Positions 8,148 to 19,634 of a stretch of 34,160 nt of DNA are shown here, one piece after another. Origin of the DNA: a virus. Location: IMG/VR virus record IMGVR_UViG_3300042475_001136, positions 1-34,160 of that record. The stretch is one strand, 5' to 3'. Position numbers and translations under genes: made by a program. Numbering within the stretch: position 1 is the stretch's first letter; each line of letters starts with the position of its first letter. Under the pieces are notes generated by a model. It was not told where the DNA came from. It did not search any database and saw only the letters and a program-made list of their open reading frames with translations.

Positions 8148-8573
8148 ATGCAATTAGAAAATAACTTAGTACAGTATTACAAAGATCAAGTGAGAAATTT
8201 AAAAACTTTGCATAAGACATTAGTCAATGCAAATTTAATTCACGATCAATTTGCAGTTGGATCTATAAATACTACAATAAGTGCTCGTAAGCTTGTAGAA
8301 CTTGTTGGTGATATGTTTGATTTAGATATTCTTGAAAAGAATAGATCTAAAAAACATACTATTGCAAGAAAAATGTCAGCTTACATTCTTAAAAAATATA
8401 CAAGACTTTCTTTGCAAGAAATTGCCCCATTAATTGGAGTAGTAGATCATACTACTGTTATTTACAATGTAAAAACAGCCTCTGATTATATAGATACTGA
8501 TGAATGGTTTAAAGAAAAAATTGAAGAAATTGAGAAAGAGATTGAAAATTATAGTATATTTGTAGGTCAATAA
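8148..8573 (+). CDS. Orphan DnaA domain IV protein (replication initiator-like)
   Basis: 141 residues. Residues 69-110 match the DNA-binding domain IV of DnaA: KKHTIARKMSAYILKKYTRL, SLQEIAPLIGVVDHTTVIY, with the DHTT recognition signature at 100-103. The AAA+ ATPase domain is absent; the N-terminal 65 residues are helical with no P-loop. It could bind DnaA boxes in the phage or host origin and recruit or block host DnaA. It sits among replication genes, just before a structured leader and a primosome-type gene. Confidence 0.88.
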   Translation: MQLENNLVQYYKDQVRNLKTLHKTLVNANLIHDQFAVGSINTTISARKLVELVGDMFDLDILEKNRSKKHTIARKMSAYILKKYTRLSLQEIAPLIGVVDHTTVIYNVKTASDYIDTDEWFKEKIEEIEKEIENYSIFVGQ

Positions 8574-8584
8574 TCATTCAAAAA

Positions 8585-8670
8585 GCAATATGCGACATTG
8601 CAAGATTTACAATATTGGGCCGAGGATGAACAGGTAGTCGCATTACCTGGGATTCTGAAGCCCATTTTTT
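8585..8670 (+). ncRNA. Structured leader with two kissing hairpins and a terminator-like stem
   Basis: The only spacer of about 100 bp in the replication block. Hairpin 1 is GCAAT (8585-8589), loop ATGCGAC (8590-8596), ATTGC (8597-8601). Hairpin 2 is CAGGTA (8631-8636), loop GTCGCAT (8637-8643), TACCTG (8644-8649). The two 7-nt loops are perfectly complementary. TGGGC (8616-8620) pairs with GCCCA (8660-8664) around hairpin 2 and is followed by six T (8665-8670), like an intrinsic terminator. GCAATAT (8585-8591) could instead pair with ATATTG (8612-8617), giving a second fold. ATG 8675 follows at once, so control of that gene is inferred. No known riboswitch class is recognised. Confidence 0.65.
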
Positions 8671-8674
8671 ATTT

Positions 8675-9292
8675 ATGTCTAAAGATCCAGCCGTGTTATT
8701 TTATACATCAGATTTTTTGTCTGGTACATTTACCATGACAGATGAGCAAGTAGGAAAATACATTAGACTGTTATGCCTTCAGCATCAAAAAGGCAAGTTA
8801 ACTGAAAAGGATATGCTCAGCATATGCAAAGCATATGATGTTGACATTTGGGAAAAATTTGATCAAGTAGATGGTCTGTTTATAAACAAGAAAATGTTTG
8901 AAGAGTCTGAAAGACGCAAGAAATTTACAGAAAGTCGTAGATCTAATGCAAAAACAGTTAAAAGTGATAGCATATCCTTAGCATATCCTCAGCATATGCC
9001 TATGCATATGGAAACTGAAACTATAACTATAACTAATAAAGATATATTTATAAATAATATAGAAGAGTATCGAGGAATTTTAGAAGATTCTTATGATGAA
9101 TTTTTAGAATATTGGACAGAACCGTCAAAAAGTGGTAAATTGCGTTACGAAATGGAAAAGTTCTTCGATGTAAAAAGAAGAGTTAATACTTGGATTAAAA
9201 ACAAACTAAGATATGGAAATAAATCTACAACAAGTTCTGGCAACAAGTCAGAGCAAAGAATTGCAAGCCTTAAAAACTGGGTTAATAGCTAA
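8675..9292 (+). CDS. Primosome-type replication protein (DUF1376/YdaU-like)
   Basis: 205 residues. The N-terminus (PAVLFYTSDFLSGTFTMTDE, then VGKYIRLLCLQHQKGKLT) matches the winged-helix domain found in phage replisome organisers and YdaU/DUF1376-type proteins, which open origins or load helicase. A low-complexity linker with repeated His/Met/Thr follows (about 100-122), then a helical C-terminal domain (SYDEFLEYWTEPSKSGKLRY, WIKNKLRYG). Its start stands right after the T-run of the structured leader, which may regulate it. The 3' end overlaps the next gene by 80 bp. Confidence 0.8.
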   Translation: MSKDPAVLFYTSDFLSGTFTMTDEQVGKYIRLLCLQHQKGKLTEKDMLSICKAYDVDIWEKFDQVDGLFINKKMFEESERRKKFTESRRSNAKTVKSDSISLAYPQHMPMHMETETITITNKDIFINNIEEYRGILEDSYDEFLEYWTEPSKSGKLRYEMEKFFDVKRRVNTWIKNKLRYGNKSTTSSGNKSEQRIASLKNWVNS

Positions 9293-19274: not shown

Positions 19275-19634
19275 ATGATTACAAACTTTGAACACATTAC
19301 AAGAGAACTAACAGAAGAAGAATGCAAATTAGTTCCAATCCTAATTAAAGGATTTAGTACAAAAACAAAAGAAACTGCAGTAAAAGCTCCTGAGATTGTA
19401 GAAGCAATCAATAAGCAAGCGGATAAATTTGGATTAAAAAACAAGTTTAGTGAGGTTAGATTAAGAAAAATAGTTAATTTTATAAGATCAGAAGGTATTC
19501 TTCCCCTAATGGCAACATCAAATGGTTACTACTGCACGGAAGATCGAGAAGAAATTAGATCACAGATTGAAAGTCTTACTCAACGTGCAGAAGCAATCAT
19601 GGTATCAGCAAATGGATTAAAGAAATATTTATAA
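19275..19634 (+). CDS. Winged-helix-like protein, possible regulator
   Basis: 119 residues behind hairpin leader 2. KAPEIVEAINKQADKFGLKN, SEVRLRKIVNFIRSEGILPL and MATSNGYYCTEDREEI read as helix-turn-helix plus wing, a pattern I have seen in small Bacteroidota phage proteins of unknown role. DNA binding is inferred. As the gene lies between nucleotide metabolism and virion genes, it could switch early to late expression. The 20-bp dyad immediately downstream could be its operator. Confidence 0.7.
   Translation: MITNFEHITRELTEEECKLVPILIKGFSTKTKETAVKAPEIVEAINKQADKFGLKNKFSEVRLRKIVNFIRSEGILPLMATSNGYYCTEDREEIRSQIESLTQRAEAIMVSANGLKKYL

Follow-up and report, generated by a model that had tools for sequence, protein, structure and literature searches.

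Here we describe a leader RNA of phage replication modules that appears to represent a family of regulatory RNAs not described before, widespread among environmental phages of probable Bacteroidota hosts. In the window, by which we mean the whole stretch of 34,160 nucleotides that was analysed (virus record IMGVR_UViG_3300042475_001136), it fills the spacer at 8585-8670 between a gene encoding the C-terminal domain of DnaA (DnaA-C) and a DUF1376-like gene. It consists of two hairpins with complementary loops, the second forming the tip of a terminator-like hairpin. We consider it probable that the leader is a cis-acting terminator-attenuator of the replication module, in which the loop of hairpin 1 makes a kissing contact with the loop at the terminator tip. 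The element is roughly 100 letters long and has its own predicted promoter; its parts and neighbours are as follows.

8148-8573, plus strand: upstream gene, DnaA C-terminal (DnaA-box binding) domain (Pfam Bac_DnaA_C, E = 2e-13)
8555-8562, plus strand: predicted -7 promoter box TATATTTG in the last DnaA-C codons, matching the Bacteroidota consensus TAnnTTTG
8585-8601, plus strand: hairpin 1 (H1), stem GCAAT/ATTGC (8585-8589/8597-8601), loop ATGCGAC (8590-8596), found by unguided RNAalifold
8602-8615, plus strand: A/T-rich linker of 14 nt with a conserved ATATT, delimited from linker lengths and column conservation
8616-8664, plus strand: terminator-like hairpin with hairpin 2 as its tip, defined by the covarying closing stem, central helix and hairpin 2
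8631-8649, plus strand: hairpin 2 (H2), stem CAGGTA/TACCTG (8631-8636/8644-8649), loop GTCGCAT (8637-8643), from the covarying loop-loop pair
8665-8670, plus strand: T6 tract immediately 3' of the closing stem, the T-run being kept in core elements
8675-9292, plus strand: downstream replication gene with a DUF1376 N-terminal domain, primosomal-protein-like (Pfam and PHROG)

The H2 loop is the full 7-nt complement of the H1 loop. The closing stem of the terminator-like hairpin pairs TGGGC (8616-8620) with GCCCA (8660-8664), and its two internal strands (8621-8630 and 8650-8659), 10 nt each, place tandem G-A mismatches on either side of a short central helix. The ATG of the replication gene lies 10 nt past this stem. 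The hairpins, complementary loops, closing stem, T6 and 10-nt strands that the initial annotation had read from this single sequence are all present exactly as it described them. Folded alone, the window leader is unimpressive (z = -1.6), and the comparison of relatives is decisive. The product of 8675-9292 matches Pfam DUF1376 with E = 0.00093, which is below the curated cut-off, and the PHROG primosomal protein with E = 0.0013. A blastn search of the leader region against phage records gave no match, and the genome is without DNA-level relatives among deposited phages.

With the two neighbouring proteins as queries, IMG/VR yielded 95 distinct DnaA-C loci, in 87 of which the spacer contains two hairpins with complementary loops, 7 nt long (6 nt in L031/L032). 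Such loop pairs arise in 0.16% and 0.3% of shuffles (two runs) and occur in 2 of 210 other gene-upstream regions. Sixty-six distinct core elements were parsed and 40 representatives of them aligned; because these rows were collected by exact loop complementarity, their 100% loop-loop pairing is partly by construction, and the unbiased count is 87 of 95. Over the 29 pairs of this alignment, standard pairs fill 92.2% of the pair cells, as against 35-40% when the partners are slid along each other, and 21 pairs show changes on both sides. In the H1 stem every pair has changed in this way, and in the loop-loop helix five of seven. Every helix contributes to the covariation score of 0.636 (0.074-0.105 after sliding), and RNAalifold without guidance recovers H1, the closing stem and H2. 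The comparison of relatives shows that the RNA structure is real and that the loop-loop complementarity is under selection. The structured leader proposed initially is therefore borne out by the covariation of its stems and loop-loop helix, whereas an alternative pairing of 8585-8591 with 8612-8617, suggested at the same time, could not be upheld: it is paired in 75.1% of cases versus 75.9% in shuffled sequences and has no covarying pair.

The remaining eight DnaA-C loci comprise five with a very distant DnaA and three (L025-L027) with no spacer, where the DnaA-C stop codon directly abuts the DUF1376 ATG (TAATAATG). L025-L027 lost the spacer or never had it, so the leader is dispensable in some lineages, and this natural absence can be used for comparison. 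According to the initial annotation, the leader would be refuted by a relative of the phage that has this gene order but no hairpins. The abutting genes of L025-L027 are of this kind, but every spacer of about 100 nt in the DnaA-C group carries the hairpins.

The leader also occurs where the DnaA-C neighbour is missing. In L036 the upstream gene is a different one, yet the architecture is kept, its loops forming a new pair, GTAGCCG/CGGCTAC. The DUF1376 proteins of L036 and L237 were used as queries for a scan, and the upstream regions, clustered at 85% identity, formed 64 clusters. Complementary 7-nt loops 43-53 nt apart were found in 20 of the 30 clusters whose spacer measures 60 nt or more, and in three further clusters overlapped by a spurious reading frame; truly abutting genes had no such loops. 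With a looser criterion, leaders were counted in 22 of 29 spaced versus 0 of 13 abutting clusters, the background being 5% of shuffles and 13 of 210 control genes. Moreover, a covariance model trained on the DnaA-C-linked group only, and blind to the loop-loop pair, finds nine distant leaders (L251, L259, L282, L248, L240, L277, L271, L241 and L237; E from 1e-7 to 0.02); in seven of them the match stops precisely at the start codon of the DUF1376 gene, and in L282 and L277 it stops no more than about 10 nt away. Since a model trained on the DnaA-C group detects distant leaders at DUF1376 starts, this comparison identifies the two sets as one RNA family, tied to the downstream gene. When the linker of the distant group was used as a DNA search pattern, the 18 matches were all unrelated. 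Leaders with larger loops or nested second hairpins were seen in the DUF1376 phages L255, L260, L265, L268, L269 and L274 (for example GTAGTGTG/CACACTAC, GGGGAACA/TGTTCCCC and TGGAACC/GGTTCCA), and they are probably further variants of the same architecture.

The gene after the leader varies while the leader stays. Products named from the sequences themselves, only some of them searched against libraries, include DUF1376, Lin1244-type, replisome-organiser-like, HNH and methyltransferase proteins and one with another winged-helix-like N-terminus. N-terminal domains (DUF1376, Lin1244-type, other helix-turn-helix) are swapped behind the leader, and the pattern indicates modular exchange at the border between leader and start codon. 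In L037, L044, L183 and L067 the C-terminal half is shared with the window gene 8675-9292 and the N-terminal domains are exchanged. An HNH nuclease gene (L091:4223-4630) and a DNA methyltransferase gene (L186:3511-4395), standing before or instead of the replication gene, begin exactly at the start-codon position of the leader. Inside the DUF1376 gene of the window lie iteron-like 11-nt repeats, AGCATATcctt/AGCATATgcaa (8808-8848 and 8969-9009); similar CATATG repeats were noticed in L036. The replication origin may lie inside the initiator gene, and lambda O likewise has iterons within the initiator gene.

H1 and H2 contain 18 G-U wobbles and no A-C mismatches, and therefore it is the plus-strand RNA that is selected; the loop-loop pair itself is strictly Watson-Crick, without wobble. 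The Bacteroidota -7 promoter consensus is TAnnTTTG (PMC7366714). Of 40 upstream clusters, 27 have an exact copy at most 34 nt 5' of H1, whereas 1.3 would be expected from shuffled sequences. Core members have the box within the final coding stretch of DnaA-C, and distant members have their exact copies 2-14 nt before H1; a TTTG near -33 is present in some distant members and weak or absent in many. Transcription in the window would start at about 8566-8569. At the other end, a run of 4-8 T follows the stem in all 66 distinct core elements, and the distance from stem to ATG is 7-11 nt in all core members. At least five T within 20 nt before the ATG are found for only 2 of the 45 genes of the window, the other one being the gene at 19275. 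The element has the sequence features of an intrinsic terminator, a G+C-rich hairpin directly followed by a U-tract; the window hairpin was not called by a consensus terminator scanner, because the internal mismatches shorten its basal stem to 5 bp. In L237, L307 and L310 loop 2 caps a second hairpin whose stem is long and near-perfect and runs into U6-U9, and in 18 of 23 DUF1376 clusters the hairpin folded around loop 2 ends at the T-run.

Loops are diverse among these phages. The 66 core elements use six loop pairs, one of them in both orders (ATGCGAC/GTCGCAT and GTCGCAT/ATGCGAC), and 17 distinct loop 7-mers are found over the DUF1376 leaders of the 64 upstream clusters. In the L036 subgroup the loop pairs differ in seven of seven sequences, with 0.306 differences per site in the loops, 0.057 in the H1 stem and 0.168 (83% alike) in the rest. 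In the core group the loops vary no faster than the rest (0.377 versus 0.366-0.452). The L036 subgroup leaves room for loop diversification between phages and is no proof of it.

Under the attenuator model, RNA polymerase would start at a Bacteroidota-type promoter located within the 3' end of DnaA-C, as the -7 box suggests, and would transcribe H1, the A/T-rich linker and then the hairpin with its U-tract before the replication start codon. The H2-tipped hairpin would act as an intrinsic terminator, so that most transcripts would stop as an RNA of about 100 nt and the replication protein would be expressed only from readthrough. The H1 loop would kiss the apical loop of the terminator with all seven bases, in a ColE1-like manner, and this contact would alter the frequency of termination; both the modulation and the direction of the effect are part of the proposal. 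The contact is suggested to form in cis, because the range of linker lengths (12-17 nt across the core group) is narrow. Loop-loop covariation, recurrence before DUF1376, enrichment of the promoter box, the T-run and the constant distance to the ATG all argue for the attenuator, and its position directly before a replication gene agrees with the initial proposal of an attenuator. No conserved antiterminator pairing was found.

Several other readings of the same data were considered. The 10-nt gap between stem and ATG speaks against the attenuator in so far as it also suits translational control, by which the leader would hide the start region, the kissing contact or a protein would open or close it, and the T-run would be nothing but an A/T-rich start. 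Throughout the core group 7-11 nt separate the stem from the ATG, which places the end of the stem inside a ribosome footprint; however, few other phage genes have a T-run ahead of their ATG (2 of 45), and the long near-perfect hairpins with U6-9 of distant members have the textbook form of a terminator, so we regard this explanation as rather unlikely. The same constant distance to the ATG would be unexpected for an independent RNA gene, and the loop 7-mers show no excess of other phage sites, which makes it still less likely that the element is a small RNA in its own right, or a primer for replication, that merely adjoins the replication gene, despite its promoter-like and terminator-like ends and the iteron-like repeats, a likely origin, inside the next gene. 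As for a site acting at the DNA level, where the loops would be a protein-bound inverted repeat and the hairpins incidental, it would agree with the strictly Watson-Crick loop-loop pair. It is very improbable given that the stems around both loops covary and that G-U wobbles are found on one strand only.

Regulation in trans deserves separate attention. The initial annotation had also offered a separate antisense RNA with the loops as its target, and this suggestion found no support: loop 7-mers elsewhere in the phage occur at chance frequency (58 seen versus 51.2 expected), and the complementarity of H1 and H2 is confined to the loops, excluding the stems. The leader might instead be its own antisense, a self-kissing sensor of copy number in which the terminated RNA would accumulate with the number of genomes, pair with nascent leaders and feed back; loop diversity would then stop cross-regulation between co-infecting phages. 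An element with its own promoter and terminator would yield a free small RNA, the downstream gene is a replication gene, and in the L036 subgroup all loop pairs differ around nearly constant H1 stems. On the other side, the core-group loops do not change faster than their surroundings, and the constant linker suits a cis contact at least equally; on balance we judge such a sensor to be unlikely. A self-antisense replication timer, in which the leader kisses nascent copies, gauges the number of phage genomes and tunes replication, is put forward tentatively as a minor possibility; it would need no separate antisense RNA, and the changing loop pair would be the identity of each phage.

The host of these viruses is probably a member of the Bacteroidota, because the promoter type fits and the only clear matches in bacterial genomes are contigs of a Chitinophagaceae metagenome-assembled genome (MAG). 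Against 395 Bacteroidota genomes the covariance model matched only two phage-like contigs of this one MAG. Otherwise no leader was found at chromosomal Lin1244-type genes, where some loci were read on the wrong strand, and three phage records whose replication proteins are related (Porphyromonas phage005b and two fecal clones) have no such loops before the gene.

The Rfam 15 scan gave no match in the window at the gathering threshold, in line with the earlier statement that the element fits no known riboswitch class, and among 20 relatives the only hit was a tRNA elsewhere in L036. A leader peptide with ribosome-mediated attenuation was rejected for want of a conserved frame: an ATG at H1 is absent in 21 of the 66 elements, and where it is present the frames run from 5 to more than 40 codons with no common peptide. 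No description of this leader was found in the open-licence literature. The general kind, a regulatory leader with kissing loops, is known, and the combination is new to us; we know of no other design that guards a replication gene by a terminator whose apical loop is kissed by the loop of an upstream hairpin. If the leader does act as proposed, it would be a minimal RNA-only switch for the timing or frequency of phage replication, and the family would be a source of orthogonal kissing-loop pairs.

Among known systems, purine riboswitches also join two hairpins by kissing 7-nt loops. They have an enclosing P1, a three-way junction and an invariant ligand core, whereas in the phage leader the hairpins stand side by side across a linker of 12-17 nt, with no junction, few invariant positions and loops free to change, and a purine riboswitch was rejected. 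The countertranscript-driven attenuator of the pT181 type likewise has a terminator ahead of a replication initiator gene, within its leader, but it depends on an antisense RNA together with an anti-attenuator pairing, and neither is seen for the phage leader. In the repZ/repA leaders of IncI-alpha, IncB and IncL/M plasmids (cited in PMC10724649), an upstream hairpin likewise has a loop that pairs with a structure further downstream, ahead of the replication initiator gene, and the resulting pseudoknot enables translation while an antisense RNA competes; in the phage leader, by contrast, the H1 loop is matched to that of a terminator-like hairpin, with no antisense RNA in evidence. The kissing itself is of the ColE1 type, as initially supposed: in RNAI/RNAII, too, 7-nt hairpin loops are fully paired and replication is controlled. 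In ColE1, however, a sense RNA meets its antisense RNA and the complementarity spans whole hairpins, while in the phage leader both hairpins belong to one RNA and only their loops are complementary.
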